Part shown: positions 1,401-56,592 of the stretch, one piece after another | How the letters are laid out: each line of letters begins with the position of its first letter | Position numbering within the stretch: position 1 is the stretch's first letter | NCBI RefSeq assembly: GCF_026241855.1 | Contig: NZ_JAPJDC010000001.1 | Span: forward strand, 1,240,001-1,304,000 | Length of the DNA stretch: 64,000 nt | Direction of reading: 5' to 3' | Origin: Curtobacterium flaccumfaciens pv. betae | GTDB lineage: Bacteria; Actinomycetota; Actinomycetes; Actinomycetales; Microbacteriaceae | Notes under the pieces: generated by a model | What the model was told of the DNA's origin: nothing | What the model saw: the letters and a program-made list of their open reading frames with translations, nothing else | Database searches by the model: none | Program-made: the position numbers and the translations under genes

Positions 1401-1448
1401 GACGGACTGGAGGCGCGGTGCCAGCCGGCACCGTGCCTCCCGTCCGTC
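1401..1448. repeat. Palindrome family 1, copy 1 (hybrid arms)
   Basis: A 48-bp imperfect palindrome centred at 1424.5, between the SMI1-like gene and corA, both reading right. The core reads GTGCCAGCCGGCAC instead of the usual GTGCCAGCTGGCAC. The left arm carries GGACTGGAGG (subtype A) while the right arm carries CCTCCCGTCC (subtype B), so this copy mixes the two subtypes and has three mispairs, one of them a possible G-U. Confidence 0.9.
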
Positions 1449-1593
1449 CCGGGGTCGCGCCCAGGGCGTGTCAGGACTCCGACAGGAATCCGGCGCGCAG
1501 CGTGAGGGGTCCGTCAGGGAAGCGCTCGCGCCGTCGGCGGTCCGGCATGCTCGGCAGGTTGCCCGCACGCACCACGGAACCAGGAGGACACCG

Positions 1594-2664
1594 GTGGCCC
1601 TCATCGACAACGGCATCTACGTCAACGGAACGCGGACGGACTCGCCCGCGGACCTCGGGCGCACGTACGAAGCGCTCGACGCCGCCGGGAGGGGCGCGAT
1701 GGCCTGGATCGGGCTGTTCCGACCGACCGCCAACGAACTGGCCTCCGTCGCCGACGAGTTCGGGCTGCACCCGCTCGCCGTCGAGGACGCGCACAAGGGG
1801 CACCAGCGGGCGAAGCTCGAGCGGTACGGCGACACCCTGTTCGTGGTGCTGCGACCCGCCTGGTACGACGAGGACGAGGAGACGGTCGAGTTCGGTGAGG
1901 TGCACCTGTTCACCGGGCGCGACTTCGTCGTCACCGTCCGGCAGGCGGAACGGCCGAACCTCGCCGACGTGCGGAAGCGACTCGAAGCCGACCCGGACGC
2001 CCTGGGGCGCGGGTCCGAGGCGGTGCTCTGCGCGGTCCTCGACGAGGTCATCGACAGCTACGCCCCGGTCGTCGCCGGGCTGCAGGACGACATCGACGAC
2101 ATCGAGGACGACCTGTTCGACGGCGACGTCGACCCGGCGTCCTCGCGGCGGATCTACCAGCTGCTCAGCGAGGTCATCGGGTTCCAGCGTGCCATCGGCC
2201 CGCTGCCCGGGATGCTCAACGCGTTGCTGCGGGGTGCCGAGAAGTACGGCACGGACACCGAGGTGCAGAACCAGCTGCGGAACGTCCTCGACCACGCGAT
2301 CCGCGTCACCGAGCGGGTGGACACGTTCCGGACGCTGCTCGAGAACGCCCTCACGCTGCACTCGACCCTGGTGACGCAGGAGCAGAACGACGCGATGCGC
2401 CGGATGACCAGCGCGAGCCTGGCACAGGGGGAGGAGAGCCGGCGGCTGGCTCGGGCGTCGATGGAGCAGGGCGAAGAGGTGAAGAAGATCTCGTCGTGGG
2501 CGGCGATCCTGTTCGCCCCGACGTTGGTGGCGTCGATCTACGGCATGAACTTCGAGCACATGCCCGAGCTGCGGTGGGCGTGGGGGTACCCGGCGGCGAT
2601 CGTCGCGATGGTCCTGCTGGCGGTCGTGCTGTGGGCGGTGTTCAAGCGGCGGCACTGGCTCTGA
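1594..2664 (+). CDS. corA: CorA-family magnesium/cobalt channel
   Basis: A 356-residue CorA family protein that carries Mg2+ (and Co2+) across the cytoplasmic membrane as a pentamer. The long acidic N-terminal cytoplasmic domain is followed by two C-terminal membrane segments (about residues 295-315 and 327-348), separated by the signature G317-M318-N319 (YGMNFEHMPEL) and ending in basic KRRHWL. The GTG start is chosen because AGGAGG at 1582-1587 stands six bases upstream; a longer frame from 1468 lacks such a site and adds non-homologous residues. Length is normal for actinobacterial CorA. It is flanked on both sides by palindromic repeats and is probably transcribed alone. Confidence 0.93.
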   Translation: MALIDNGIYVNGTRTDSPADLGRTYEALDAAGRGAMAWIGLFRPTANELASVADEFGLHPLAVEDAHKGHQRAKLERYGDTLFVVLRPAWYDEDEETVEFGEVHLFTGRDFVVTVRQAERPNLADVRKRLEADPDALGRGSEAVLCAVLDEVIDSYAPVVAGLQDDIDDIEDDLFDGDVDPASSRRIYQLLSEVIGFQRAIGPLPGMLNALLRGAEKYGTDTEVQNQLRNVLDHAIRVTERVDTFRTLLENALTLHSTLVTQEQNDAMRRMTSASLAQGEESRRLARASMEQGEEVKKISSWAAILFAPTLVASIYGMNFEHMPELRWAWGYPAAIVAMVLLAVVLWAVFKRRHWL

Positions 2665-2675
2665 GCGTGCGTGAC

Positions 2676-2723
2676 GACGGACTGGAGGCGCGGTGCCAGC
2701 TGGCACCGTGCCTCCAGTCCGTC
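2676..2723. repeat. Palindrome family 1, copy 2 (subtype A)
   Basis: A 48-bp palindrome centred at 2699.5, starting 11 bases after the corA stop. Outer arms are GACGGACTGG and CCAGTCCGTC, the core is GTGCCAGCTGGCAC, and there is one G-T wobble in the stem. Confidence 0.95.
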
Positions 2724-2837
2724 CGCTGGTCGCGTCGCGCGACCGACGCCGGCTTGTTCACCCAACCGACGCATGCGCGTGGCAGGGTGGTCCGGGGCAT
2801 CGTCGCCCGCAGCCCAGCCAGCCGCCAGCGGAGCACG

Positions 2838-3650
2838 ATGCCAACACCCGACCTGATGATCGTCACGGACCTCGACGGGACGTTCCTCGACCACCACGAC
2901 TACTCGTTCGACGCGGCCCTGCCGATGCTGGAACAGCTGCGGGCGGACGACGTCCCCGTGGTGTTCTGCAGCAGCAAGACGCGTGCCGAGATCACGGCGC
3001 TGCAGGCGCGCACCGGGCTCGACGGGCACGCGTTCGTGGCGGAGAACGGCGCGGTCGTGGTCGGATCGGCGGGCGAGGTGCTGGTCGGACCGGTCGACGG
3101 CGACCTCGAGCGGCTGCACGCCGAACTCGCTCGCGTCCGCCGGGCACTGCATCTGCGGTTCGAGACCTTCGGCGGCGTGACCGACGCGGTCGTCGCCGCG
3201 TGGACCGGCCTCGACCTCGAAGCGGCCGGACGCGCGCAGCAGCGCGAGGCGTCCGAGGTGCTGCTCTGGCACGCCGAGGACGACGACCGGGCCGACGCGT
3301 TCCGCGCGGCGCTCGCCGCGGTCGGCCTCGACCTGGTGCGGGGCGGCCGGTTCTGGCACGTGCTGCCGGCGGGCCGCGACAAGGGTGCGGCGGTCCGGAC
3401 GCTGATCGCCGACCGCGAGCGTCGGACGGGGACCACCCCGCGCACGATCGGACTCGGTGACGGCCCGAACGACACCGCGTTGCTCGACGCGGTCGACTTC
3501 GCCGTCGTGGTCCGCGGGCACGGCCCGGCACCCGGACCACTCGCCGACGACCGCCCCGAGCGCGTCCACCGCACGACCGCCCCCGGCCCGCAAGGCTGGA
3601 CCGAGGGCCTCACCCGGTTCACCACCCCGTCCGTCAGGAGCCACCGATGA
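2838..3650 (+). CDS. HAD phosphatase of the mannosyl/glucosyl-3-phosphoglycerate phosphatase family
   Basis: A 270-residue HAD-superfamily Cof-type phosphatase. The nucleophile motif is D11-L-D13-G-T. Further family motifs are CSSKTRAEI (motif II region), a GRDKGAAV lysine segment and GLGDGPNDT (motif IV). The sequence resembles MpgP/GpgP enzymes, which remove the phosphate from mannosyl- or glucosyl-3-phosphoglycerate to give the compatible solute mannosylglycerate or glucosylglycerate. The stop codon overlaps the start of the synthase gene by four bases (ATGA at 3647-3650), so the two proteins are probably translationally coupled and act in sequence in the cytoplasm. The sugar is inferred from the partner enzyme. 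Confidence 0.85.
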   Translation: MPTPDLMIVTDLDGTFLDHHDYSFDAALPMLEQLRADDVPVVFCSSKTRAEITALQARTGLDGHAFVAENGAVVVGSAGEVLVGPVDGDLERLHAELARVRRALHLRFETFGGVTDAVVAAWTGLDLEAAGRAQQREASEVLLWHAEDDDRADAFRAALAAVGLDLVRGGRFWHVLPAGRDKGAAVRTLIADRERRTGTTPRTIGLGDGPNDTALLDAVDFAVVVRGHGPAPGPLADDRPERVHRTTAPGPQGWTEGLTRFTTPSVRSHR

Positions 3651-4861
3651 GCGACTTCCACCAGAACGGCGTCATCACGACGTTCCACGACCTCGGTCGC
3701 CGCAGCACCGCGAGCCTCGAGGAGGACCTGCGGGGCTTCGCCGAGAAACGCCCGATGAGCCTGATCCTGCCGGCGCTGTACTCCGAGCTCGAGCGTCCGG
3801 CCCTGTCGCGGATCGTCGACGAGCTGGCCGAGGCCGACTGGCTCAGCGAGATCGTGATCGGGCTCGACCGGGCCGACCGCTCCCAGTTCGAGCACGCCCG
3901 CGAGTTCTTCTCGCGGCTGCCGCAGCGGCACCGCATCCTGTGGAACGACGGGCCGCGGCTGCGCGAGCTCGACGCCGAACTGGAGCGCGCGGGACTGGCG
4001 CCGGGGGAGCCGGGCAAGGGCCGGAACGTCTGGTACTGCACCGGGTACGCCCTGGCGTCGGAGCGAGCGGACTGCATCGCCCTGCACGACTGCGACATCA
4101 CCACGTACGAGCGGGGCATGCTCGCGCGGCTGTTCTACCCGGTCGCGAACCCCGCGTTCGACTACGAGTTCTCGAAGGGCTACTACGCCCGCGTCGCCGA
4201 CGGTCGGATCAACGGCCGCGCCGCGCGGCTGCTCGTCGGGCCGCTGCTCCGCTCGCTCCGCCAGGTCTACGGGGAGTCCGAGTACCTGGAGTACCTGAGC
4301 AGCTTCCGGTACCCGCTGTCCGGCGAGTTCGCGATGCGCGCCCACGTGCTGAACGGCCTGAAGATCCCCGGCGACTGGGGACTCGAGATCGGCATGCTCT
4401 CCGAGGTGTACCGCGACTACGCGACCCGGCAGGTGTGCCAGGTGGAGATCGCCGACGCGTACGACCACAAGCACCAGCCCCTCGCCGAGGCCGACGGCAC
4501 CGGCGGCCTCGCCCGGATGGGCAACGACATCGTGCAGTCGCTGCTCCGGAAGCTCGCGACCATGGGCGTCCCACTCACGTCCGACTCGTTCCGCGTGCTC
4601 AAGGCGACGTACTACCGGAACGCGCTCGACATCGTCGAGGTGTACCGGCACGAAGCCGAGATGAGCGGGCTCACGTTCGACCAGCACGCCGAGGAAGCCG
4701 CGGTGGAGCTCTTCACCAAGGCGATCCTCGATGCCGGCGGCGCCTTCACGGCGCGGCCGAACGACAAGCCGTTCATCCCGAGCTGGAGCCGGGTGCGCTC
4801 AGCGGTGCCGGACGTGCTCGACCGGCTGCGGGACGCGGTGGAGGCGGACCAGCAGGACTGA
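3647..4861 (+). CDS. gpgS: Glucosyl-3-phosphoglycerate synthase-like glycosyltransferase
   Basis: A 404-residue GT-A fold, retaining glycosyltransferase. Visible motifs are LPALYSE (residues 41-47), GKGRNVW (123-129), the metal-binding D148-C-D150 in ALHDCDITTYERG, and GDWGLEIGML. The length and these motifs match bacterial GpgS, which joins glucose from NDP-glucose to 3-phosphoglycerate. The upstream overlapping phosphatase would then release glucosylglycerate, a solute made under salt stress or nitrogen limitation in several bacteria. Mannosyl specificity remains possible because the donor cannot be read from sequence. The gene ends 33 bases before a perfect palindrome that also faces the end of the convergent monooxygenase gene. 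Confidence 0.85.
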   Translation: MSDFHQNGVITTFHDLGRRSTASLEEDLRGFAEKRPMSLILPALYSELERPALSRIVDELAEADWLSEIVIGLDRADRSQFEHAREFFSRLPQRHRILWNDGPRLRELDAELERAGLAPGEPGKGRNVWYCTGYALASERADCIALHDCDITTYERGMLARLFYPVANPAFDYEFSKGYYARVADGRINGRAARLLVGPLLRSLRQVYGESEYLEYLSSFRYPLSGEFAMRAHVLNGLKIPGDWGLEIGMLSEVYRDYATRQVCQVEIADAYDHKHQPLAEADGTGGLARMGNDIVQSLLRKLATMGVPLTSDSFRVLKATYYRNALDIVEVYRHEAEMSGLTFDQHAEEAAVELFTKAILDAGGAFTARPNDKPFIPSWSRVRSAVPDVLDRLRDAVEADQQD

Positions 4862-4894
4862 TCTGGCGCCGTGAGCGCGCCCTGGGCGCGGGTC

Positions 4895-4948
4895 AACGGC
4901 GGACGGGAGGCACAGTGCCAGCTGGCACTGTGCCTCCCGTCCGCCGTT
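4895..4948. repeat. Palindrome family 1, copy 3 (perfect, 54 bp)
   Basis: A perfect 54-bp palindrome (AACGGC ends, centre 4921.5) between convergent gpgS and the luciferase-like gene. The stem reads ACAGTGCC on the left and GGCACTGT on the right: a G-to-A change on one side is matched by C-to-T on the other, so pairing is kept. Confidence 0.97.
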
Positions 4949-4960
4949 CTGGCGCCGTTC

Positions 4961-5992
4961 TCAGACCGCGCGCTCCGGCGCCCAGCCGAGTTCCGGACCC
5001 AGCCGCTCGGCGATGTCCGTGATGATCTGGGCGTAGTCGTCGGGCTCGAACGAGAACGGGAGTGCGAAGGCGACCTCGGTGACCGCCTGGTAGCCGACGT
5101 CGGCACGGAGCCGGTCCGCGATCTCGGCCGACGTGCCCACCAGGTCGGCGGCGAAGAGCATCCCGGCGGGGCCCTGCGGCACGCCGACGCGACCCGAGCG
5201 GCTGTCGACGTAGGCGCGGTAGCGGGCCTCTTGCTCGGCGGTCGCGGTGTCGGTCGGGATGACGACCAGGCCCTGCGAGACGCGGGCGCCAGCGGGGTCG
5301 GGGTGGACGTCGAGGTAGGCGTCGATCTGAGCGCGCTGGTTCGTGGCGAAGTCCGTGCCGTTCTCGCTGCGGGTGACGCTCGAGGTGAGCAGGTGGAAGC
5401 CGTTCTCACCCGCCCAGACGGCCGACTTCGTGCTGCCGGTGCCGTACCAGATCCGTTCGGCCAGGCCGGCGCTGTGCGGCTGGACGGTGCTCGCGAACTC
5501 TTCGATGCCGCGGCGTTCGACGGTCTCGGTGGCCGTCACCGGGTCACCGCGCACCAGGGCACGGAAGCGCAGGAGCCGGTCGTTGCCGAGGTCCTCGTGC
5601 TCCAGGGTGTCGGGGTAGATCGCGTCGCGGTACAGGTCGAAGTTCATCGGGGTGCCGACCGAGAACCCCGGGTTCAGGCGGCCGCCGAGCAGGACGTCGA
5701 CCGTGCTGAGGTCCTCCGCGAGGCGGAACGGGTTCTCCGCGCCGATCGGGGTGACGGCGGTGCCCAGGTCGATGCGCGAGGTGCGCTGCGAGGCGGCGGC
5801 CAGCACCGCGACGGGGGAGGAGATGCCGTGCTGCAGGTGCCGGTGGCGCAGCCAGGCGCTGTCGAAGCCCAGGGCCTCGGCGCGCTCGATCACGCGCAGG
5901 GTGTCCTCGTGGCCCTCGGACGGTCGTGCGGGGTCGAACGACCCGATCGTCAGGAAGCCGATCCGGTGCAGGGGAGTTCCGTCGAGGGGCAT
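4961..5992 (-). CDS. LLM-class flavin-dependent monooxygenase
   Basis: A 343-residue bacterial luciferase-like (LLM) TIM-barrel oxidoreductase, expected to use FMNH2 or F420H2 supplied by a separate reductase. Typical features are the N-terminal IGFLTIG strand, the GFDSAWLRHRHL segment, the LGTAVTPIG strand and the GGRLNPGFSVG loop. No signal peptide is present. The ATG at 5992 is preceded by CACGAT six bases upstream, a weak leaderless-type promoter. It lies next to the VOC-protein gene on the same strand but is separated by about 60 bases. The substrate is unknown. Confidence 0.85.
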   Translation of the reverse strand: MPLDGTPLHRIGFLTIGSFDPARPSEGHEDTLRVIERAEALGFDSAWLRHRHLQHGISSPVAVLAAASQRTSRIDLGTAVTPIGAENPFRLAEDLSTVDVLLGGRLNPGFSVGTPMNFDLYRDAIYPDTLEHEDLGNDRLLRFRALVRGDPVTATETVERRGIEEFASTVQPHSAGLAERIWYGTGSTKSAVWAGENGFHLLTSSVTRSENGTDFATNQRAQIDAYLDVHPDPAGARVSQGLVVIPTDTATAEQEARYRAYVDSRSGRVGVPQGPAGMLFAADLVGTSAEIADRLRADVGYQAVTEVAFALPFSFEPDDYAQIITDIAERLGPELGWAPERAV

Positions 5993-6055
5993 GGGTCGAT
6001 CGTGCCAGATGCGTCGTGCCGTTCGTCCGTCGGTGACCGTTCCGCAGCCGCCGGC

Positions 6056-6448
6056 TCAGACACCGGTCTCCTTGATCAGGGCCTCGACGTTGTTGCCGTC
6101 CGGGTCGGACACGAACGCGGTGTACGCGCCGTACTCCGGCCAGTAGCGCGGCTCGTGCCGTGACACCCCGCCGGCGGCGACGGCTTCGCGGTGGAAGGCG
6201 TCGACCTCGCTCCGTGACCCGGCCTCGAACGCCAGGTGGAGTCCGCGCGTCGTCGCCTCGGGGGTCCGGGCGGTCTCGAGCGAGACGCTCGGGGTGTCGT
6301 CCCCGTGCTGCCAGAACTCGGCGACGGCATCCGTGCGGTAGCCCACTCCGATGCCGAGGGGCGCGAGGGCGGCGGTGTAGAACGCGTCGCTCGCGGCGAA
6401 GTCGCTGGCGAAGACGCCCAGGTGGTGCATGAGGTGACGACCCGGCAT
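6056..6448 (-). CDS. VOC-family (glyoxalase/dioxygenase-like) protein
   Basis: A 130-residue vicinal-oxygen-chelate protein. It opens with MHHLGVFASDFAASDAFYTAAL and ends with the paired strands AYTAFVSDPDGNNVEAL, the usual betaalphabetabetabeta halves. The metal ligands expected in active members are plausibly H8 or H9 and the glutamate of NNVEAL. Such proteins may be lyases, dioxygenases or fosfomycin/bleomycin-type resistance proteins; nothing here decides which. The gene starts leaderless from the hexamer at 6455-6460 and is divergent from the SMP-30 gene. Confidence 0.82.
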   Translation of the reverse strand: MPGRHLMHHLGVFASDFAASDAFYTAALAPLGIGVGYRTDAVAEFWQHGDDTPSVSLETARTPEATTRGLHLAFEAGSRSEVDAFHREAVAAGGVSRHEPRYWPEYGAYTAFVSDPDGNNVEALIKETGV

Positions 6449-6454
6449 GGGACG

Positions 6455-6460
6455 ACCCTA
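6455..6460 (-). promoter_or_regulatory. -10 hexamer TAGGGT for a leaderless start at 6448
   Basis: On the minus strand TAGGGT is followed by six bases (CGTCCC) and then the ATG of the VOC gene. Confidence 0.6.
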
Positions 6461-6518
6461 GGCCGCCGTCACGGCATCCGTCCGGGCAGCGTCCCGGTCC
6501 CGCTGGCAGGCTGGGTCC

Positions 6519-7385
6519 GTGCACATCACCCTGGACTCCGCAACCGACATCGTCATCTCCGGCATCCGTTTCCCGGAGGGGAACCGCTGGCACGACGGGC
6601 GGCTCTGGTACTCGGACATGCACACCGGCGAGGTGTTCTCGGTCGACCCGTCCTCGACCGACGGCCCCCGGCTCGAGGCCACCGTCGACGGGCAGTCGTC
6701 GGGGCTCGGGTGGCTCGCCGACGGGCGGTTGATCGTCAGCTCGATGGAGTCCCGCACGGTCGTCGCCGTCGACCCGGACGGCAGCACCTCGGTGTTCGCC
6801 GACCTGTCCACGATCGAGTCGTCGCTCGTGAACGACCTGGTCGTCGACGCCCAGACCGGCCGGACCTACATCGGTGCCTTCGGCTACGACCTGTACGCGG
6901 GCGAGGAACTGCGCCCCGGCCCGCTCTACGTGATCGACCCTGACGGCTCGGTCCGCCTCGCCGCCGAGGGCCTGGTGTTCCCGAACAGCGCCAACATCCT
7001 GCCCGGCACCCGGACCCTGGTGGTCAGCGAGACGTGGGGTGGCCGCCTCACCGCCTTCGACATCGAGGACGACGGCTCACTGACCGGACGTCGCGAGTGG
7101 GCAGCCCTGCCCGGCGGCGTGACCCCGGACGGCAGCACCGTCGACCGTGACGGCGCGATCTGGGTCTGCTCGGTCGACACGGGGGAGTTCCTGCGGGTCG
7201 TCGAGGGCGGCGAGGTGACGGACCGCATCGACGCACCCGGGGACTGCGCGATCGACTGTGCGCTCGGCGGCGAGGACGGTCGCACCCTCTACCTGGCGAC
7301 CGCCGACAGCTACGACCCGGCCGTGACGGCGCAGACGCGTGCCGGCCGGATCAGTTCGGTGCGGGTCGAGGTTCCGGGGTGGTGA
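6519..7385 (+). CDS. SMP-30/gluconolactonase/LRE-like beta-propeller enzyme
   Basis: A 288-residue six-bladed beta-propeller of the SMP-30/gluconolactonase family. It begins GIRFPEGNRWHDGRLWYSDMHTGEVFSVDP, where the glutamate of PEGNRW is the usual metal ligand. SSLVNDLVVDAQTGRTY supplies the conserved Asn-Asp pair, and further blade motifs include PNSANILPG and GTPDGSTVDRDGAIWV-like repeats. Family members hydrolyse sugar lactones in a Ca2+- or Zn2+-dependent way in the cytosol. The GTG start is fixed by CAGGCT six bases upstream. No other lactone-pathway enzyme is adjacent, so the substrate is open. Confidence 0.85.
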   Translation: MHITLDSATDIVISGIRFPEGNRWHDGRLWYSDMHTGEVFSVDPSSTDGPRLEATVDGQSSGLGWLADGRLIVSSMESRTVVAVDPDGSTSVFADLSTIESSLVNDLVVDAQTGRTYIGAFGYDLYAGEELRPGPLYVIDPDGSVRLAAEGLVFPNSANILPGTRTLVVSETWGGRLTAFDIEDDGSLTGRREWAALPGGVTPDGSTVDRDGAIWVCSVDTGEFLRVVEGGEVTDRIDAPGDCAIDCALGGEDGRTLYLATADSYDPAVTAQTRAGRISSVRVEVPGW

Positions 7386-7487
7386 ACCCGAGCGACCTCG
7401 CCGAGGCGACACGTCGTGCGGAGTACTGACGTCTGACCCCCGACGCGTGGCCGGGCGGGCGGCTCGGGGTCGATGGATGCACGCTCG

Positions 7488-7548
7488 GTGCGAGGTTGCA
7501 CTCCTGGTGCGAGGCATCGAGGGTCGCACCAGGTGCGCAACCTCGCAC
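7488..7548. repeat. Hairpin family 2, copy a
   Basis: Inverted repeat with 25-bp arms (7488-7512 and 7524-7548, three mismatches) and an 11-base loop. The left arm opens GTGCGAGGTTGC and the right arm closes GCAACCTCGCAC. It sits between two rightward genes and runs directly into the 16-bp tandem array. Confidence 0.9.
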
Positions 7549-7611
7549 CAGACGACACGGACGCCAGACGACACGCGCACCAGGCGACACGCGCACCAGA
7601 CGACACGGACC
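7548..7611. repeat. 16-bp tandem repeat, four units
   Basis: Units start at 7548, 7564, 7580 and 7596 with consensus CCAGRCGACACG followed by four variable bases. The first unit overlaps the terminal CC of the hairpin just upstream, so array and hairpin form one composite element. The period is not a multiple of three and no gene covers it. Confidence 0.9.
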
Positions 7612-7666
7612 CCGCACCCCTCCGGGTACGGCAGACTGCACGGACAAGCATCCAGGAGTGATCGTC

Positions 7667-8674: not shown

Positions 8675-8684
8675 CGCGCGCCGA

Positions 8685-8746
8685 GACGCCGCCCAGTCGC
8701 CGAGACGCCTCCGTTTTCGGAGGCGTCTCGCACACGGGGCGGCGTC
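8685..8746 (+). terminator. Nested hairpin after the SPFH gene
   Basis: Inner perfect 13-bp stem (CGAGACGCCTCCG, loop TTTT, 8701-8730) enclosed by a 10-bp outer stem GACGCCGCCC/GGGCGGCGTC (8685-8694 with 8737-8746). It begins 11 bases after the stop codon. There is no T-tract, as is common for actinobacterial terminators. Confidence 0.75.
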
Positions 8747-8789
8747 GGGGGAACACGACGGCGTCTTCCGGATCCGAGACGCGCGCCGC

Positions 8790-8837
8790 GACGGACGGGA
8801 GGCACGGTGCCAGCTGGCACCGTGCCTCCTGTCCGTC
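8790..8837. repeat. Palindrome family 1, copy 4 (subtype B)
   Basis: A 48-bp palindrome centred at 8813.5 between the convergent SPFH and ABC permease genes, 25 bases from the permease stop. Arms are GACGGACGGGAGGC and GCCTCCTGTCCGTC, with one mispair. Confidence 0.95.
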
Positions 8838-8862
8838 GGTGTGGCGGGGTCCAGAGCCCCGC

Positions 8863-13497: not shown

Positions 13498-13545
13498 GAC
13501 GGACTGGAGGCACGGTGCCAGCTGGCACCGCGCCTCCAGTTCGTG
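13498..13545. repeat. Palindrome family 1, copy 5 (subtype A)
   Basis: A 48-bp imperfect palindrome centred at 13521.5, between two leftward genes: 30 bases downstream of the reductase-like gene and upstream of the ROK gene. The right outer arm (CCAGTTCGT) has decayed. Confidence 0.9.
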
Positions 13546-21233: not shown

Positions 21234-21277
21234 CGGACTGGAGGCCCGGTGCCAGCTGGCACCGGGCCTCCAGTCCG
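21234..21277. repeat. Palindrome family 1, copy 6 (subtype A)
   Basis: A perfect 44-bp palindrome centred at 21255.5, 24 bases beyond the stop of the NTF2-like gene. The stem has GCCCGGTGCC/GGCACCGGGC in place of the common GCACGGTGCC, changed on both arms together. Confidence 0.95.
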
Positions 21278-28498: not shown

Positions 28499-28550
28499 CT
28501 GACGGACGGGAGGCACGGTGCCAGCTGGCACCGTGCCTCCCGTCCGTCAG
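28499..28550. repeat. Palindrome family 1, copy 7 (perfect, 52 bp)
   Basis: A perfect 52-bp palindrome centred at 28524.5, starting four bases after the ltrA stop, between convergent genes. This is the cleanest subtype B copy (GACGGACGGG/CCCGTCCGTC). Confidence 0.97.
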
Positions 28551-30929: not shown

Positions 30930-30990
30930 GTGCGAGGTTCCACACTCCGTGCGGCGCTGCGGGCGCCGCACGGAGTGCGCAACCTCGCAC
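30930..30990. repeat. Hairpin family 2, copy c
   Basis: Arms of 28 bases (30930-30957, 30963-30990) with only two mismatches around a five-base loop; outer motif GTGCGAGGTT/AACCTCGCAC. It is the best preserved member of its family. It lies in the 317-base gap between the divergent YrhK-like and sugar-binding-protein genes, which otherwise holds one decayed palindrome and a promoter. Confidence 0.92.
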
Positions 30991-31024: not shown

Positions 31025-31071
31025 GGCGGCCGGGAGGCGCGGGGCGGGCTGGCACCGTGCCTCCCGTCCGT
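31025..31071. repeat. Palindrome family 1, decayed copy
   Basis: The right half (GGCTGGCACCGTGCCTCCCG) is intact while the left half has lost the core (GGGAGGCGCGGGGCGGGCTGG). It is the only copy between divergent genes, that is, not at any 3' end, and it is decayed. Confidence 0.7.
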
Positions 31072-31107
31072 GGGGCGCACCGCCCACTGCCACATGCGAT
31101 TACAACG

Positions 31108-36907: not shown

Positions 36908-36959
36908 AAGGCGGACGGGAGGCGCGTGGCCGCACCGCCACGGGCCTCCCGTCCGCCGT
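36908..36959. repeat. Palindrome family 1, variant copy
   Basis: Arms GGCGGACGGGAGGC and GCCTCCCGTCCGCC are intact (36910-36923, 36944-36957) but the core is replaced by GTGGCCGCACCGCCAC. It lies between the convergent GH31 and LacI genes; the right end abuts the LacI stop codon. Confidence 0.85.
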
Positions 36960-43493: not shown

Positions 43494-43565
43494 TCGCGAA
43501 CGTGAGCGCGTGGGGTGTCGCCCAGCCCGTGACGACGGCGGCCGCCGGCCCGGCGCGCGACGAGA

Positions 43566-43609
43566 CGGACGGGAGGCCCGGTGCCAGCTGGCACCGGGCC
43601 TCCCGTCCG
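43566..43609. repeat. Palindrome family 1, copy 8 (subtype B)
   Basis: A perfect 44-bp palindrome centred at 43587.5 with the GCCCGG/CCGGGC stem variant also seen at 21234. It is more than 270 bases from either convergent gene end. Confidence 0.96.
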
Positions 43610-43653
43610 CCTGCGCGCCCGTTCTTTCCCATCGCAAGCGCGTTGGTTCGCAA

Positions 43654-43796
43654 GAACGGGCGTACCTGGTCGAAAGAACTCACCAGGTACGCCCGGTTCC
43701 ACCAGGCACGCCCGGTTCTGCCAGGTACGCCCGGTTCTGCCAGGTACGCCCGGTTCTGCCAGGTACGCCCGGTTCTGCCAGGTACGCCCGGTTCCA
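43654..43796. repeat. 19-bp tandem repeat array with an inverted leading copy
   Basis: Six head-to-tail units of CCAGGTACGCCCGGTTCTG start at 43683, 43702, 43721, 43740, 43759 and 43778. The three inner T-form units are identical, the first and last end in CCA, and a seventh partial unit follows. At 43654-43670 one unit lies in reverse (GAACGGGCGTACCTGGT), able to pair with any unit of the array. The period is not divisible by three and no gene is credible here. Confidence 0.92.
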
Positions 43797-48287: not shown

Positions 48288-48306
48288 CGGCTGCCCCGGT
48301 CAGTCC

Positions 48307-48312: not shown

Positions 48313-48318
48313 CGACAC

Positions 48319-49179: not shown

Positions 49180-49216
49180 GGGCCCGAACATCAGCGATGC
49201 AGCCCGGCCGAGACGG

Positions 49217-49222
49217 TATCGT
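49217..49222 (+). promoter_or_regulatory. -10 hexamer TATCGT for a leaderless start at 49229
   Basis: TATCGT, six bases (CGAGTA), then ATG. Confidence 0.6.
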
Positions 49223-49228
49223 CGAGTA

Positions 49229-49714: not shown

Positions 49715-49756
49715 TCACTTCGCGTCCAGCGACACCTCACGGCCGGCCGCGCGCGT

Positions 49757-49777
49757 GAACTGTCGCCCAGCGCGAAA
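49757..49777. repeat. 21-bp dispersed repeat, right copy
   Basis: Inverted match (20 of 21) to 43473-43493, beginning GAACTGTCGCCCAGCGCG. It lies between the DUF5519 gene and the ABC ATPase gene. Confidence 0.75.
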
Positions 49778-49872
49778 ACCCGCCCGCACCCGCACCCGCG
49801 CCACCCCCGCGTCACCCTGTGGGAGCACACATCTCCCCCCAACGGCGGACGCGGCGACGCCGAGCGCTCCCG

Positions 49873-49878
49873 TAGCGT
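49873..49878 (+). promoter_or_regulatory. -10 hexamer TAGCGT for a leaderless start at 49886
   Basis: TAGCGT, seven bases, then the GTG of the ABC ATPase gene. Confidence 0.55.
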
Positions 49879-49885
49879 CGAGGCC

Positions 49886-50818: not shown

Positions 50819-51678
50819 GCGCCACCACCTCGCCCACCACGCCGTCGACCCGGATGAGCGGCTCGACCCGCCTGTCGTTCCCGCACCTGGTGCGGAGCGA
50901 GTGGATCAAGCTGCGGAGCATCCGGTCCACGTTCTGGTGCTACGCGATCCTGGTCGTCGTCACGATCGGCATGGCCGCGCTGGTCGGTGCGAACACGAAC
51001 AGTGGCGGGCAGGACCTGCCGACGGACGTCGCCAACGGCACGTTCGTCAACGCCAACACCGTCGGCGTCCTGCTCTCGTCGCTCGTCGTCGGCGTGCTCG
51101 GCGTCCTCATCATCACCGGTGAGTACGGCACGGGCCAGGTCCGCTCGACCTTCACCGCCGACCCCCGTCGCACCGGCGTGATCCTGGCGAAGGCCACCGT
51201 CCTCGCCGTCACGACGTTCGTGGTCAGCGCGGTCGCCACCTGGATCGGCGTCCTCATCTCGCTCCCGCTGCTCGCCGGCAACGGTGTCGAGCCGGAGATC
51301 GGTGACCCGTCGGTCTTCATGCCGATCCTCGGTTCGTCGGTCTTCCTGACCCTGCTGGCGCTCCTCGCTTACAGCATCGGTCTGCTCGTCCGTTCGAGCG
51401 CCGGTGGCATCGCGATCACGCTCGGCATCCTGTTGGTCCTGCCGGTGGTCCTGGGCCTGATGGCCGGGCTGATGAAGGTCGACTGGCCGATGGACATCAT
51501 GTCGTTCCTGCCCGACTCGGCCGGTGGCCAGCTCTACGCCTACTCGTACGACGGCGCGAGCGCCGCCGCCACCGGCGGCGTCAAGCTGAACGGCTGGGGC
51601 GGTTTCGGCGTCCTCGCGGCCGAGGTCCTGGTCATCGGCGGCCTCGCCCTGACGCTCGCGCGCCGTCGCGACGTCTGA
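50815..51678 (+). CDS. ABC-2-type permease
   Basis: A 287-residue permease with six hydrophobic helices. A Thr/Ser-rich N-terminus of about 30 residues is followed by FPHLVRSEWIKLRSIRSTFWCYAILVV and VLIITGEYGTGQVRSTFTADPRRTGVILAKATVLAV, a characteristic cytoplasmic turn of this permease class. A loop between helices 5 and 6 carries SYDGASAAATGG. The transporter is probably a dimer of two such subunits with two ATPase subunits. Confidence 0.88.
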   Translation: MSATTSPTTPSTRMSGSTRLSFPHLVRSEWIKLRSIRSTFWCYAILVVVTIGMAALVGANTNSGGQDLPTDVANGTFVNANTVGVLLSSLVVGVLGVLIITGEYGTGQVRSTFTADPRRTGVILAKATVLAVTTFVVSAVATWIGVLISLPLLAGNGVEPEIGDPSVFMPILGSSVFLTLLALLAYSIGLLVRSSAGGIAITLGILLVLPVVLGLMAGLMKVDWPMDIMSFLPDSAGGQLYAYSYDGASAAATGGVKLNGWGGFGVLAAEVLVIGGLALTLARRRDV

Positions 51679-51692
51679 CGCGACCACCCCAC

Positions 51693-51734
51693 GGCCGGGA
51701 GGCGCGGTGCCAGCCGGCACCGCGCCTCCCGTCG
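51693..51734. repeat. Palindrome family 1, copy 9
   Basis: Centred at 51713.5, 14 bases after the permease stop, upstream of a rightward gene. The outer arms are lost (GGCCGGGAGG/CCTCCCGTC) and the core has the GCCAGCCGGC variant also seen at 1401. Confidence 0.88.
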
Positions 51735-51761
51735 TTCCGCGGTGCGCGTCCACCGCGTCAC

Positions 51762-51767
51762 TAGGCT
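51762..51767 (+). promoter_or_regulatory. -10 hexamer TAGGCT for a leaderless start at 51774
   Basis: TAGGCT, six bases (CACAGC), then GTG. Confidence 0.65.
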
Positions 51768-51773
51768 CACAGC

Positions 51774-52262
51774 GTGCGTTCCGTCCCCGCCCTGCTCCTG
51801 CCCGCGATCGCGGGCGTGCTGCTGCTCGCCGCCTGCTCCGGGTCGCCGCCCGTCGACGAGGCCGCGCTGTCCGCCTGGGAGAAGCGCCAGATGGCCACCC
51901 ACTCGGACCGGGAACTCGGGGCGATGTACGCCGAGGAATCCGCCGGGCAGAGCGCGACGGGGAACGACGACGAGATCGACCGTGGCGTCACGATCACGTT
52001 CGCGCACCCGGAAACGGTCGACCACCTCGAGTTCTCGTGCTTCGGTGACGGGCACATGAGCGGTTCCGTCACGGTCGTCTCCGGGAGCACGTCGCGGAAC
52101 GACATCACCGAGTCGATGCCCTGCGGCGACGGAGCGCAACGCATCGACTTGCGGCGGACCTGGCGTGCCGACGTCGACAGCATCTCCTTCAACGGGTTCG
52201 ACAGCGACCGCGACAGCGCCTGGAACGTCCGCGTGATCGGCGCAGAGCCCGTCGAGGACTGA
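51774..52262 (+). CDS. Hypothetical lipoprotein
   Basis: A 162-residue protein with a short signal (MRSVPALLLPAIAGVLLL) and lipobox LAAC, lipidated at C21. The mature domain is acidic with two further cysteines (FSCFGDG and ESMPCGDG) spaced for a disulfide, in a beta-rich arrangement (DHLEFSCFGDGHMSGSVTVVSGS). No family recognised. It should be anchored on the outer face of the membrane. Leaderless start. Confidence 0.8.
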   Translation: MRSVPALLLPAIAGVLLLAACSGSPPVDEAALSAWEKRQMATHSDRELGAMYAEESAGQSATGNDDEIDRGVTITFAHPETVDHLEFSCFGDGHMSGSVTVVSGSTSRNDITESMPCGDGAQRIDLRRTWRADVDSISFNGFDSDRDSAWNVRVIGAEPVED

Positions 52263-52270
52263 CCGAGCGC

Positions 52271-52876
52271 TCAGGACCGCCGGACGTCGTACCGGTGCAG
52301 GGTGACGCCGTTGTCGTAGCGCTGCTGCTCGAGCAGGTCGAGCTGCACGAGCGGGCGGTGCCCCGAGCGCGGCGGATCGAACAGCGGCCGACCGGCGCCG
52401 AGCACCGACGGGTGTGTGAAGAGCATGACCTCGTCGAGCAGCGCGGCATCGAGCAGCTGACTCGCGATGCTCGGTCCGCCCACTCCGATGTCGCCGTCGC
52501 CGGAGGCACGGATCGCGGCCAGCTCGGTGATCGCGTCGCCGTCGCCACCGATGACCCGGGTGTCGTGGTCGGCGGTGGTCCGGGTGCGGGACACCAGGAC
52601 CTTCGGCTGCGCGGTCCAGATCTCGCCGTACTCGCGCAGGTACTGCGGCATCGACTCGTCGTGCCGGGCGTCGGGCCAGAACGGGTCCATCATGTCGCGC
52701 ACCACCCGGCCCTCGACGGACAGGGTCATCGCGGCGGCGCGGGCGTTGAACTCGCGGTGCAGCGGTTCGTCGATCCGGATCCAGTCGGGTCCGTCCAGGC
52801 CGTCGTGCTCGCCGGGGGCCCGTTCGACGAACCCGTCGACGGAGACGTTGATCCAGTAGACGAACCTCGCGGGCAT
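52271..52876 (-). CDS. RibD C-terminal/dihydrofolate-reductase-like protein
   Basis: A 201-residue DHFR-fold protein of the RibD_C group: RFVYWINVSVDGFVE at the N-terminus, GGDGDAITELAAIRASGDGDIGVGGPSIASQLLDAALLDEVMLFTHPSVLGAGRPLFD (the GGxxxxxxL NADPH loop and VLGAGxPLF end). Family members reduce pyrimidine intermediates of riboflavin or related substrates; these stand-alone genes usually have unknown targets. AGGAG lies seven bases before the ATG. The gene converges with the lipoprotein gene. Confidence 0.85.
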   Translation of the reverse strand: MPARFVYWINVSVDGFVERAPGEHDGLDGPDWIRIDEPLHREFNARAAAMTLSVEGRVVRDMMDPFWPDARHDESMPQYLREYGEIWTAQPKVLVSRTRTTADHDTRVIGGDGDAITELAAIRASGDGDIGVGGPSIASQLLDAALLDEVMLFTHPSVLGAGRPLFDPPRSGHRPLVQLDLLEQQRYDNGVTLHRYDVRRS

Positions 52877-52980
52877 GGCATGACTCCTTCGTCGAGCCGA
52901 GCGTACGCTCGCGCACGTCGCCCGTCGACACCCGCAGTCCCTCCAACAGCACCTCCCTCAACGACGAGAGCAGGTCAGGC

Positions 52981-54924
52981 ATGCGCCGATCGTCCACCGC
53001 ACTCCTCGCCGTCGTGACGTTCCTCGGCGTCGCGACCACGGGCCTCCAGGCTGCACCAGCGGATGCGTCCGCGGTGCCGGGCGGAACCATCCGGGCGACC
53101 ACCACCACGACCGTGGCGTCGAGCGCCGCCAGCCGGCACGGCCGCACGGCACCCAACCACCAGAACCCGGTCGCGCTCAGCCTGCCCGACGGGCAGACGG
53201 CCGCGAGCTGCGCGGACCCGACCGTGATCCACGGAGCCGGACGCGACCGCAACTGGTACCTCTACTGCACCACCGACGCGCTCACCGCGACGGAGCAGAA
53301 CCCGGACGGGTCACTCGTGCAGCACGCCGTCCCCACGTACCGGTCGACCGACCTGACCCACTGGACGTACGTGAACGACGCGTTCCCGACGAAGCCCGCC
53401 TGGGTGGGCGACGCGAACGGGATCTGGGCGCCGGACGTCGTGTACCGCGCCGGAGACCGTGGTCGGGCCGGCACCTGGTACCTGTACTACGCGGCGTCGG
53501 ACACCCCGTCGGCGACGGGGCCGAGCGGCGGCGGCTCCGCGGTCGGGGTGGCGACGAGCTCGAGCCCGACGGGGCCGTGGAAGGACTCCGGCGGACCGGT
53601 CGTGGCACCGCAGACCGCGCCGAACGGCGACGGCGCGCGGTGGGCCTTCGACCCCGAGGTCATCACCGACGGCGGCACGACCTACCTGTACTTCGGCAGC
53701 TACTTCGGCGGCGTGAACGTCCGGCGGCTCAGCGCGGACGGCCTGCGCTCCGACCCGTCGACCGAGCGGCAGATCGCGATCGACAACCGCTACGAGGGCG
53801 CGTACCTGATGCGGCACGGCGGCTGGTGGTACTTCATGGGCTCCGCCACGAACTGCTGCAACGGCGCCCTGACCGGCTACGGCGTCTTCGTCGCCCGGTC
53901 ACGGAGCCCGCTCGGGCCGTTCACGGACCGCGACGGTGTGGCGATCACGAGCACCCGGGTCGGCGGCACGCCCCTGCTCGCGCAGAACGGCAACCGGTGG
54001 GTCGGTACCGGTCACAACACCGTGGTCACCGACTTCGCCGGCCAGGACTGGGTCATCTACCACGCGGCCGACCGCACCGACCCGTACTACGCGGGGCAGC
54101 CGACCTACACGAAGCGGCCGGCGCTGATCGACCCGCTCGACTGGCAGGGCGGCTGGCCGGTCGTCCGCGGTGGTGCCGGGCCGTCCGACACGGTGCAGCC
54201 GGGGCCGGTCGCGCAGCCCGGGCAACGGCCGACGTACCGGGCATCCATCGCCCCGCTCGACGTGCCGGGTCGGACGATCCGCGGGCTGTCGACCTCCTTC
54301 GACGGTGCCGCGCTGCCCGGGGAGGAGCCCGGAGCGCTGCCCGCCGCGCTCACGTGGACGCGTGCGCCCGACCCGTCCACCTGGACCGTCGCCGACGGCA
54401 CGTTCCGCTGGCAGACGCAGGACGCCGACATCCACCCGCCGGCGACGCCGCTCGCGTCGGTGTTGTCCGAACCGGCGCCCCGTGGGGACTACGTGCTCCA
54501 GACCACGGTCGGGGTGGACACCCCGGCCACCGGCGACGGGCTGAACTACGTGCAGGGCGGCCTGATCGTCTGGGGTGACGACGGCAACTACGTCCGGCTC
54601 ACCTCGAACTCGATCTTCAACACGCGCCAGACCGAGTTCGGCAAGCAGGTGTCCGGGCAACCGGCCGGGGCGCCGAGCTACGGCAACATGGTCGTCGGTC
54701 CGGTCGGGGACACCACCACGCTCCGGATCGTCCACCGCGAGTTCCGGGGCGAGGACCGGTACACGGCGTACACCAGCCTGGACGGGCGGCACTTCGTCCG
54801 GGGCGGGACCTGGACGGCGGACCTCGGCAGTGCACCCCGAGTCGGGCTCATCTCGCTCGGAGGCTCCGGCTTCACCAGCACCTTCGAGGACCTCCGCGTG
54901 AGCACGGTCGCGACGCGTCGCTGA
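52981..54924 (+). CDS. Secreted GH43-family glycosidase (arabinanase-like) with C-terminal beta-sandwich
   Basis: A 647-residue exported enzyme. The signal peptide ends near PADASA (residues 1-31). A five-bladed beta-propeller (about 60-400) contains the base D79 in SCADPTVI, D224 in RWAFDPEVI and the acid E272 in NRYEGAYL. WAPDVVY (149-155) and MGSATNCCNG (286-294) are typical of this family. The C-terminal 210 residues (STSFDGAALPGEEPGALPAALTW through FTSTFEDLRVS) form a concanavalin-like sandwich. It should attack arabinan or arabinoxylan side chains. ATG 52981 follows GAGAGCAGG. Its 3' end is followed by repeats and the kinase gene. Confidence 0.88.
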   Translation: MRRSSTALLAVVTFLGVATTGLQAAPADASAVPGGTIRATTTTTVASSAASRHGRTAPNHQNPVALSLPDGQTAASCADPTVIHGAGRDRNWYLYCTTDALTATEQNPDGSLVQHAVPTYRSTDLTHWTYVNDAFPTKPAWVGDANGIWAPDVVYRAGDRGRAGTWYLYYAASDTPSATGPSGGGSAVGVATSSSPTGPWKDSGGPVVAPQTAPNGDGARWAFDPEVITDGGTTYLYFGSYFGGVNVRRLSADGLRSDPSTERQIAIDNRYEGAYLMRHGGWWYFMGSATNCCNGALTGYGVFVARSRSPLGPFTDRDGVAITSTRVGGTPLLAQNGNRWVGTGHNTVVTDFAGQDWVIYHAADRTDPYYAGQPTYTKRPALIDPLDWQGGWPVVRGGAGPSDTVQPGPVAQPGQRPTYRASIAPLDVPGRTIRGLSTSFDGAALPGEEPGALPAALTWTRAPDPSTWTVADGTFRWQTQDADIHPPATPLASVLSEPAPRGDYVLQTTVGVDTPATGDGLNYVQGGLIVWGDDGNYVRLTSNSIFNTRQTEFGKQVSGQPAGAPSYGNMVVGPVGDTTTLRIVHREFRGEDRYTAYTSLDGRHFVRGGTWTADLGSAPRVGLISLGGSGFTSTFEDLRVSTVATRR

Positions 54925-54936
54925 CGGCGTGGGTGC

Positions 54937-55006
54937 GCAAAACACCGGTGTTCGCAGGCTGAACCGCGGTCTGCGCGTGTTCGACCCGCGAACACCGGTG
55001 TCTTGC
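54937..55006. repeat. Hairpin with CACCGGTG arms, downstream of GH43 gene
   Basis: Arms of 19 bases (54937-54955 and 54988-55006) match except at one position; each arm contains the smaller palindrome ACACCGGTGT. Sequence is unlike the other two families, but size, position and trailing tandem repeat are similar. Confidence 0.8.
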
Positions 55007-55008
55007 AA

Positions 55009-55053
55009 GCCGCACGGCCGCGCCGCCGCACGGCCGCGCCGCCGCACGGCCCC
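55009..55053. repeat. 16-bp GC-rich tandem repeat, nearly three units
   Basis: GCCGCACGGCCGCGCC starts at 55009, 55025 and (truncated) 55041, immediately after the hairpin at 54937-55006. Confidence 0.85.
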
Positions 55054-55141
55054 GTTCAGCCGCGAAACGTCGCCCGTCAACGAGATACCCGTCGGGATGC
55101 GAAGATGCATCGTTGGTGCCGGAGCCGAGAACGAGGGTTGG

Positions 55142-56554
55142 ATGATCCCGACGGAAGAACACGACGCGAGCGCGCCGCTGCTCGACGGTCGGTACCGCGT
55201 GGAGCAAGCGATCGGCCAGGGCGGCATGTCCGTCGTCTACCGGGGTGTGGACGAGAGCCTGCACCGCCCGGTCGCGATCAAGCTTTTCCACGCGGGCATC
55301 GTCGACATCGCTCGGCAAGAGGCCGAACTCGGCGTGCTGGCGTCGCTCGAGCACCACAACCTCGTCAGCCTGCTCGACGCCGGTGTCGTCACCGGGCAGG
55401 ACGGCACGCAGCAGCGCTACATCGTGATGTCGCTCGTCGTCGGGCAGGACCTCGAGGAGCGCCTGGCCGTCGGCCCGCTCGCCTCGCGGCACATCGCCGA
55501 GATCGGCTACGACATGGCCGAGGCCCTCGACTACATCCACGCCCACGGCGTCGTGCACCGCGACATCAAGCCGTCGAACATCCTGCTCGTCGACTACGGC
55601 AACGGCTCCGACCGGGCCCGCGCGCGCCTGACCGACTTCGGCATCGCGCTCGCCGCCGGCGTCGAACGCCTGACCGCCGACGGCGTGACCACCGGCACCG
55701 CCGCGTACCTCAGCCCCGAGCAGGCGCGCGGCGGCGAGGTCGGCCCGCCGAGCGACGTCTACTCGCTCGGCCTCGTGCTGCTGCAGTGCTTCACCCGCCG
55801 TCGCGAGTTCCCGGGCTCCCTCGTCGAGTCAGCCGTCGCCCGGCTGTCCCGCGACCCCGTGGTCCCCGAGCCCCTGCCCGAGCACTGGAAGCACCTGCTC
55901 CGTGCCATGACCGCGCAGGACCCCGCGGCCCGCCCGCTCGGCGCCGAGCTGGTCACGATGCTCCGCGACGTCGTGATCGCGGAGACCGCCACGAGCGATC
56001 ACGTGGTCGAGCCGACCGACGAGACGGCTCCGGTACCGATGCGCCCCGAGACGGACCGCCCGGCGACCCTCGACACCCTGCCCGACGAGTCGCTGCAGCG
56101 CACCACGGCGATGGCGGCCCGGCTCTTCGACGCTCCGATCGCCCTGGTCGAGGTCCTCGACGAGGACCGCGAGTGGTCCCAGTCGTACATCGCCGAGGGC
56201 GTCGACGAGGCGGCCCGCAGCATCAGCTTCCGCAACGGCTTCGCCCCGGTCCCCGTCCCCGTCGTGATCCCGGACGGCTCCGCGCACCCCGAGATGCGGA
56301 ACAGCCCCCTGGTCACCGGCCCGCTCGGCATCCGCTTCTACGTCAGCGTCCCGCTCGTCAAGCACGACGGCGCACCGATCGGGACCCTCGCCGTGCTCGA
56401 CACCCGCCCGCGGCAGGCCACCGAGGACGACCTCGCGAACCTCCGCGACCTGGCGGCGCTCGCCGTCTCGCAGCTCGAGATCCGCCAGGAGTCCCTGCGC
56501 ACGACCAGCGACTCGCTGCCGGTCCCACGGGTGGTCGGCGACCACACCGCCTGA
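55142..56554 (+). CDS. Soluble Ser/Thr protein kinase fused to a GAF domain
   Basis: A 470-residue protein. The Hanks-type kinase occupies about residues 18-275: glycine loop GQGGMS, K47, HRDIKPSN with catalytic D141, DFG 166-168 and SPE (191-193) in the place of APE. After a linker rich in acidic and Thr residues, a GAF domain (about 318-445: TAMAARLFDAPIALVEVLDEDREWSQSYIAEG, YVSVPLVKHDGAPIGTLAVLDTRPR) ends the protein. There is no membrane helix and no PASTA repeats, unlike PknB. ATG 55142 follows GAGGG; a start at 54929 would span the repeats. Sensing a ligand or redox state by GAF and passing it to the kinase is inferred. Confidence 0.9.
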   Translation: MIPTEEHDASAPLLDGRYRVEQAIGQGGMSVVYRGVDESLHRPVAIKLFHAGIVDIARQEAELGVLASLEHHNLVSLLDAGVVTGQDGTQQRYIVMSLVVGQDLEERLAVGPLASRHIAEIGYDMAEALDYIHAHGVVHRDIKPSNILLVDYGNGSDRARARLTDFGIALAAGVERLTADGVTTGTAAYLSPEQARGGEVGPPSDVYSLGLVLLQCFTRRREFPGSLVESAVARLSRDPVVPEPLPEHWKHLLRAMTAQDPAARPLGAELVTMLRDVVIAETATSDHVVEPTDETAPVPMRPETDRPATLDTLPDESLQRTTAMAARLFDAPIALVEVLDEDREWSQSYIAEGVDEAARSISFRNGFAPVPVPVVIPDGSAHPEMRNSPLVTGPLGIRFYVSVPLVKHDGAPIGTLAVLDTRPRQATEDDLANLRDLAALAVSQLEIRQESLRTTSDSLPVPRVVGDHTA

Positions 56555-56592
56555 CGGGAGGCCCGGTGCCAGCCCGCACCGCGCCTCCCGAC
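56553..56592. repeat. Palindrome family 1, copy 10
   Basis: Centred at 56572.5. The left arm begins inside the kinase stop codon. The core has changed to GTGCCAGCCCGCAC, and pairs at the ends are lost, so this is a decaying copy (GACGGGAGG/CCTCCCGAC). Confidence 0.85.

Follow-up and report, generated by a model that had tools for sequence, protein, structure and literature searches.

Repeated gene-end palindromes in Curtobacterium flaccumfaciens pv. betae: a candidate bidirectional 3'-end hairpin cassette without a U-tract

Features of the element

The stretch analysed here, referred to as the window, comprises 64,000 nucleotides of the plant- and soil-associated bacterium Curtobacterium flaccumfaciens pv. 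betae (positions 1,240,001 to 1,304,000 of contig NZ_JAPJDC010000001.1, assembly GCF_026241855.1), with a GC content of 71%, and is part of a genome of 3.78 Mb. It carries repeated copies of a GC-rich palindrome of the form GGAGGC-(20 nt)-GCCTCC, flanked by GACGGACG and CGTCCGTC and about 48 nt long in total, which is called the element below. Eleven full copies with these arms span exactly 32 nt; their arms start at 1409, 2684, 4906, 8798, 13506, 21240, 28509, 36918, 43572, 51698 and 56557, and that of a poorer copy at 31033. According to our own gene calls, six copies lie in convergent and five in tandem gaps, while the only one in a divergent gap is the poor copy at 31033. The copies are listed below; no strand is assigned.

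1401..1448: copy with core GTGCCAGCCGGCAC; tandem gap (+ +), its arm at 1409 lying 54 nt from its stop
2676..2723: copy with the exact core; tandem gap, GGAGGC 19 nt past the stop of a CorA-like gene
4895..4948: copy, perfect 54-nt palindrome; convergent gap
8789..8838: copy; convergent gap between a Band_7 gene (+) and a permease gene (-)
13498..13545: copy; tandem gap (- -)
21234..21277: copy, perfect 44-nt palindrome; tandem gap (- -)
28499..28550: copy, perfect 52-nt palindrome; convergent gap between an LtrA gene (+) and a BCCT gene (-)
31025..31072: decayed or hybrid copy with arms of two inner types; the sole divergent-gap copy in the window
36910..36957: copy with another inner stem (CGTGGC..GCCACG type; GGAGGCGCGTGGCCGCACCGCCACGGGCCTCC); convergent gap, GH31 and LacI genes
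43564..43611: copy with the exact core; convergent gap, about 280 nt to the nearest called stop on either side
51690..51737: copy with core GTGCCAGCCGGCAC; tandem gap, GGAGGC 19 nt past a stop
56549..56596: copy with core GTGCCAGCCCGCAC; convergent gap, at the stop of a protein kinase gene
60985..61017: half-decayed copy with one intact GCCTCCCGTCC arm (by sequence inspection)

An earlier note on this DNA had listed these copies, and all were recovered, including the decayed ones at 31025 and about 60985; the copy it placed at 36908 was taken for a carrier of the core GTGCCAGCTGGCAC and proved to have a different inner stem. Several copies had been described as perfect over 44-54 bp, in agreement with the three palindromes above, of which that of 54 nt is the longest in the window. 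The number of copies between convergent genes (five or six) and the decayed state of the only divergent-gap copy had also been read correctly. Proximity to a stop codon, put at about 35 bases for nearly all copies, holds for most of them and fails for those at 43572 and 1409.

The sequence GTGCCAGCTGGCAC is merely the most frequent inner core among several inner-stem types. Allowing up to two mismatches, it was found 10 times in the window (7 exact, 2 with one mismatch, 1 with two), against an expectation of 0.49 from 100 shuffles. The inner types include GTGCC..GGCAC, TGGCG..CGCCA, GTACC..GGTAC, a 33-nt type with GCACGACGTGC, and others of 37 to 43 nt. Among the Curtobacterium copies with a 32-nt span, 23 of 188 are hybrids whose two arms come from different inner types. 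The span is 32 nt in 47 of 53 copies of the strain's own genome; one-base and five-base length variants occur, and the span is mostly 36-37 nt in a version from another genus. At the symmetric outer ends GACG is base-paired with CGTC, and neither end carries an unpaired GTAG or CGTC tag (partly by inspection); the outer arm GACGGACGGGAGGC is conserved beyond the need of base pairing.

Six folds of four window sites gave z-scores of -5.8 to -11.0 relative to shuffles. For an 86-nt piece around the copy at 28499..28550, the folding energy is -67.3 kcal/mol on one strand and -69 kcal/mol on the other, with z-scores of -8.4 and -7.8. In Rfam no match exceeded the gathering score: matches on the element in the window (miRNA and ar35 models) were all sub-threshold, and loci L040-L046 (140 kb) gave none. 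An identity of the element with the miRNA or ar35 models was rejected, as its scores lay below the family cut-offs.

Abundance and distribution

With exact arms and any inner sequence, 298 matches were counted in the own genome (control 16), positions being known for the first 100; the earlier extrapolation to hundreds per genome holds for this genome. The first core, with up to three mismatches, gave 96 matches per strand in this genome (controls 1 and 0). Its count in relatives, which the earlier note had proposed as a check, was made in 119 genomes: all 64 further Curtobacterium genomes have at least one match and 61 of them at least 37 (37-131), and in other genera none of the 54 genomes exceeds one match. 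The genomes G040, G051 and G063 of Curtobacterium hold only 1-5 copies of the common core, and in G040 the wider type is represented by 8 copies, whose inner stems are diverse. Among the matches listed for G018 the GGTACC inner type dominates.

When the wider arm pattern was searched in 199 genomes of the family, more than two forward matches were found only in the four Curtobacterium genomes included (G040 8, G056 67, G052 73, G000 150) and in two of a second genus, g65, whose three genomes have 16 (G146), 4 (G276) and 1 (G220). The g65 hairpin (L238-L257; G146, G276) has the same CGGGAGGC arms, mostly a 36-37 nt span and diverse loops, and also lies at gene ends. In stretches of G146 that had been picked around matches, convergent and tandem gaps account for 25 of the 29 copies detected; the other 4 lie elsewhere, and no divergent gap holds one. 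Array-like copies about 190-225 bp apart were seen at G000:C1:1156566, 1156783 and 1157000, and at 819450/819663, 520195/520388 and 258358/258583.

Position relative to genes

A 464-kb sample, consisting of the window and 20 evenly spaced stretches of the own genome, yielded 57 raw hits (codon-shuffled control 11), of which 48 were kept; the other 9 were dropped before counting for more than one mismatch or an odd span, one of them by hand. Of the kept copies, 24 occupy 23 of the 66 gaps between convergent genes; a further 21 are spread over 262 tandem gaps, a single one lies in the 65 divergent gaps, and 2 are unplaced. Over 824 kb of the own genome, 79 strict copies (Markov control 4) are divided into 45 convergent, 28 tandem, 3 divergent and 3 other. 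The copies, whose mapping relative to stop codons the earlier note had suggested, lie at gene 3' ends. All scanned Curtobacterium loci together have 116 convergent, 79 tandem, 2 divergent and 15 other copies, with orthologous sites counted repeatedly; the looser scanner used for this and for the strain pair below allows mismatches and admits a few other hairpins, such as those with GAAGGC arms.

Tandem copies in the genus have GGAGGC 18-21 nt past the stop codon in 41 of 79 cases (9 of 23 in the own genome). The distance to the next start codon is 18-21 nt for 5 of the 79 copies and ranges up to 1,719 nt for the others; 5 copies overlap a called start. A flank resembling [stop]-aCGCgACCac precedes the hairpin on the stop side and is fainter on start sides.

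Of the 76 convergent gaps measuring 50-900 nt, 43 contain a hairpin of this type if one mismatch is allowed; a different strong hairpin occupies 19, and 14 have neither. Divergent gaps are without this type or another strong hairpin in 94 of 103 cases. The other hairpins are given as a sum only, since their division into repeated and unique ones rests on a grouping of gene-end hairpins by shared 11-mers that was set aside because 165 of them merged by chaining into a single mixed cluster.

Exchange of hairpins at fixed sites

Three orthologous slots were compared in 30 loci each of the genus. The fumC slot holds the element in 21 loci (three cut by contig ends) and an unrelated strong hairpin in 7; the remaining two have a low-complexity run (L159) and a degenerate start of the element (L153). 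The greA slot has the element in 20 loci and another hairpin in 10. These two sets were counted by eye, the loose script pattern miscounting greA locus L188 as an element and missing fumC loci L145, L155 and L164. Behind the non-coding rnpB RNA, 7 loci have the element, L287 has a near copy and 19 another hairpin, and the script found no strong hairpin within 140 nt in 3 of 30; at L268, judged by eye, another hairpin comes first and an element copy further on.

For the convergent gap between gshA and ffh, 38 loci were entered (four not named Curtobacterium), and the two genes are adjacent in 23, namely the own locus and 22 records named Curtobacterium. The element is present in 21 of these 23; L079 has a hairpin with outer arms altered on both sides and L068 another hairpin. 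Seven of the gaps, of 67-73 nt each, are filled by the element alone. On a DNA tree of ffh, gshA and lipA the inner type (A or B) changed at least 7 times, with 3 changes forced by well-supported branches, which is the level of shuffled labels (mean 7.2; 262 of 500 as low). Changes on both sides of the stem were found for 11 of 24 pairs, with 48 such cells; shuffles, which leave the kinship of the rows in place, gave 21.2 (standard deviation 3.0), and sliding the partners gave 4-20.

The own genome was compared with that of the same-species strain G119 over 400 kb each. A slot was scored as occupied if an element lay between its two anchors, which are about 2 kb from each other. In this one pair every comparable slot is occupied in both strains (38 of 38 and 40 of 40), with 9 of 47 and 3 of 43 sites not comparable. 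Of 34 resolved sites, 4 are identical over 48 nt; 3 of the rest, scored as lacking an element, are extraction artefacts and do hold one. The 29 paired copies, a few of which may be non-orthologous as judged from low flank scores, show 12 double stem-pair changes against 5.9 in permutations (standard deviation 2.0; maximum of 2,000 permutations 14). One slot (site 15) exchanged its entire inner stem, and tandem copy number differs at two sites (1 versus 3 at site 2, 1 versus 2 at site 16).

As far as these sequence comparisons go, the slots appear to stay in place and the inner cassettes to be swapped and kept alike among copies. The hybrid arms, the whole-type switches at fixed slots and the paired arm changes point to copying between copies together with template-switch repair. 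The sequence of a slot would be overwritten repeatedly from other copies (ectopic conversion), and/or template switching on the hairpin would bring the two arms back into register; together these processes would keep hundreds of copies alike within a genome. This route to uniformity is one that we infer; template switching has been proposed as a process for RNA hairpins (PMC8794818).

Other repeated gene-end hairpin families are present in lower number in the 824 kb. The hairpin GTGCGAGGTT..AACCTCGCAC is found in the window at 7487-7549 and 30930-30990 and in 6 strict copies in the 824 kb, two each in tandem, convergent and divergent gaps (Markov control 0); hairpins similar to it follow rnpB in some Curtobacterium species. 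One like GTGAGCAG..CTGCTCAC lies at 61014-61084, and a similar one fills the greA slot of L187; each of the 7 copies that match the strict pattern lies in a tandem or a convergent gap (control 0). The region 43650-43740 contains an inverted repeat around CGTACCTG..CAGGTACG (7 strict copies, control 0), to which units standing as several direct repeats next to the element in the gshA/ffh gap are related. The hairpin ACACCGGTGTTCG..CGAACACCGGTGT at 54937-55006 has 3 strict copies (control 0), and longer relatives occur in four other gaps.

Transcript ends and proposed function

After the full stem there are on average 1.87 T in 10 nt (108 strand-sides, 8 of them with at least 4), the intergenic T content being 16.4%. 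Counted from GCCTCC the mean is 2.35, and other gene-end hairpins gave 1.6 with the same script. The absence of a T-tract, which the earlier note had stated, was also found here. In terms of the canonical (L-shaped) intrinsic terminator, the element is a GC-rich hairpin soon past the stop codon and is without the U-tract; in structure it fits the I-shaped kind, whose strong hairpin lacks poly-U and stands no more than 50 nt from the stop, although a minority of copies are further off. Rho is present in all 30 genus genomes searched. In all loci pooled, with orthologous sites repeated, the inner stem is perfect in 86 of 110 convergent and 28 of 68 tandem copies.

The element is probably a bidirectional 3'-end hairpin cassette without a U-tract, either a terminator or a barrier to trimming after Rho, homogenised by copying. 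This assignment, made from sequence comparison, is favoured because of the position at gene ends, the replacement by unrelated hairpins at orthologous slots and the presence behind rnpB in some species; the rarity in divergent gaps and the seven convergent gaps of 67-73 nt filled by the element alone lend it further support. As RNA polymerase moves beyond a gene's end, the nascent RNA would fold into a GC-rich hairpin of 20-26 bp, with its base about 11 nt past the stop codon at the commonest spacing. Since the DNA palindrome is nearly perfect, both transcripts of a convergent pair would form such a hairpin. Without a U-tract, it would end transcription as an I-shaped terminator or, alternatively, where Rho terminates, would fix and protect the 3' end. 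We infer from the sequence that the RNA hairpin forms and that it ends or trims transcripts.

Several observations weigh against this function. The hairpin has no U-tract directly after it (mean 1.87 T in 10 nt over 108 strand-sides), and mycobacterial polymerase is said, with reference to work of Czyz in 2014, to require one. At tRNA 3' ends the element was found in none of 14 inspected (17 tRNAs found), 8 of which have a short hairpin and a tail more or less containing T, as judged by inspection. Three of the 79 strict copies lie in divergent gaps and three in no gap. The strand test on sense-oriented tandem copies was neutral, with 54 G-U and 54 A-C mismatches (inner part 24:14, outer part 28:40; inner part in the own genome 7:1). 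In the own genome the difference in perfect inner stems between convergent (24 of 39) and tandem copies (10 of 24) was not significant (p 0.19). As far as the sequence reaches, an opposite coding gene ends in the same gap in the element-bearing rnpB loci, so that this slot may serve two transcripts. The gene calls were made with our own script and checked against Pfam for some neighbours, and are not a curated annotation; the kinship left in the gshA/ffh controls belongs on the same side.

One branch of the proposed function, itself possible though held tentatively, is that Rho or another factor terminates downstream and that the hairpin only blocks 3'-to-5' exonucleases, thereby defining the mature 3' end. 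The occurrence of Rho in all 30 genus genomes searched and the missing U-tract agree with it, and so do the Term-seq study of S. griseus, which takes structured 3' ends without the motif to be I-shaped terminators or else Rho transcripts that were trimmed (PMC8914203), and the share of Rho in mycobacteria of about 54% of termination sites (PMC12288462); the seven gshA/ffh gaps of 67-73 nt, the one observation that tells the two branches apart, leave little room for Rho before the opposite gene. Terminator, mobile element and protein site had been regarded as equally open in the earlier note. They are no longer equal: a 3'-end function is favoured on the grounds given above, and spread as a mobile element related to repetitive extragenic palindromes (REP), by a transposase for which gene ends are tolerated landing sites, has lost ground. 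Copy number, palindromy and genus-specific spread would suit such an element, as would the dominance of one inner type in single genomes (GGTACC among the matches listed for G018), the hybrid copies and the tandem arrays of strain-variable copy number. Against it, the search for a RAYT/TnpA-REP-like gene came back empty, Y1_Tnp/RAYT (PF01797) being found in 0 of 66 genus genomes and in 5 of 14 known genomes used as positive control, with other transposase families not searched. There was also no insertion polymorphism at the comparable slots of the strain pair, the slot elsewhere usually holds another hairpin and not an empty site, and the outer pairs vary with compensation, so that a REP-like origin is highly unlikely.

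A reading as the binding site of a nucleoid-associated or supercoiling protein, in which the hairpin is a by-product, would account for the conserved outer arm and the prevalent 32-nt span. It gives no obvious reason for the rarity in divergent gaps and the anchoring to stop codons, the inner stem covaries, unrelated hairpins take its place, and the length variants, including the 36-37 nt span of the other genus, mildly oppose a fixed helical phasing; it can be given little credence. The observation in the earlier note that more sequence is conserved than a hairpin needs is shared here and is provisionally attributed to copying between copies, although recognition by a protein may still contribute. 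Least probable of all is a signal resembling the DNA uptake sequences of Neisseria that settled in terminators. In Neisseria and Pasteurellaceae genus-specific arms do occur as inverted repeats in gene-end hairpins (PMC1852404), and one of five arm words, CGGACTGGAGGC, was found alone 4 times where 1 is expected; yet the main arm GACGGGAGGC occurs 67 times with its partner and 11 times alone, with 18 expected in all (first-order Markov, 824 kb), and the three remaining words show no lone excess. It is the missing excess of the main lone arm that makes an uptake signal so unlikely.

The proposed 3'-end hairpin might, in a more speculative and rather doubtful extension, belong to a small set of interchangeable standard cassettes, dominated by the element, that form a genus-specific termination code in fixed slots. 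Recognition would not depend on a U-tract: the cassettes themselves would be recognised, whether RNA polymerase acts together with NusG or a dedicated RNA-binding factor reads the GGAGGC/GCCTCC stem, which is nearly invariant. Recombination would keep the cassettes uniform.

Comparison with known systems

The literature consulted leaves it unsettled whether, in high-GC actinobacteria, hairpins without U terminate transcription or only shield ends that Rho has made. The roughly 300 nearly alike copies, their natural variants (perfect, imperfect, with hybrid arms or other inner stems) and the unrelated hairpins in the slots of sister species constitute a natural test set for termination versus protection. 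The fixed slots with shuffled cassettes are likewise a natural record of the copying of hairpin arms and of kept complementarity.

Among the top-ranked hits of a literature search made largely outside the subscription journals, no paper described such a family in Curtobacterium or Microbacteriaceae. Curtobacterium is unmentioned in the main texts of RepRanger (PMC12306157) and of the paper on GTAG and CGTC families (PMC3733652). The element resembles the bacterial stem-loop sequence families (PMC2267715), which are repeated families with a common secondary structure; that paper does not use the words Leifsonia and Streptomyces, and the portion of its table that was covered names no Microbacteriaceae.

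Like REP, BIME and REPIN sequences (GTAG and CGTC families), the copies are short extragenic palindromes numbering hundreds per genome; the CGTC families are described as having no dedicated transposase (PMC3733652). Unlike RAYT-linked REP, they are found with no Y1/RAYT gene, are symmetric with paired GACG/CGTC ends and have slots that are stable within the species. With the uptake-sequence terminators of Neisseria and Pasteurellaceae they share a genus-specific inverted repeat that makes up a large share of gene-end hairpins (PMC1852404); they differ in that the main single arm is not in excess, the arm pairs change jointly and there is no T-tail.

In form the element is close to terminators of other actinobacteria. 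In mycobacteria, U-less hairpins within 50 bp of stop codons occur alongside a dominance of Rho (PMC12288462), and Streptomyces Term-seq gave U-poor intrinsic terminators, with 3-4 U in the first 10 nt and with the longest and most stable hairpins (PMC12207403). The element likewise would provide a long, stable, GC-rich hairpin soon past the stop with few or no U. Those terminators are, in the portions of the papers covered, not described as one repeated family, whereas in Curtobacterium 43 of the 62 convergent gaps with a strong hairpin have one sequence, palindromic and alike genus-wide. The combination of a U-less hairpin, putative bidirectionality and a homogenised repeat family is filed here as what sets the element apart from known gene-end hairpins.

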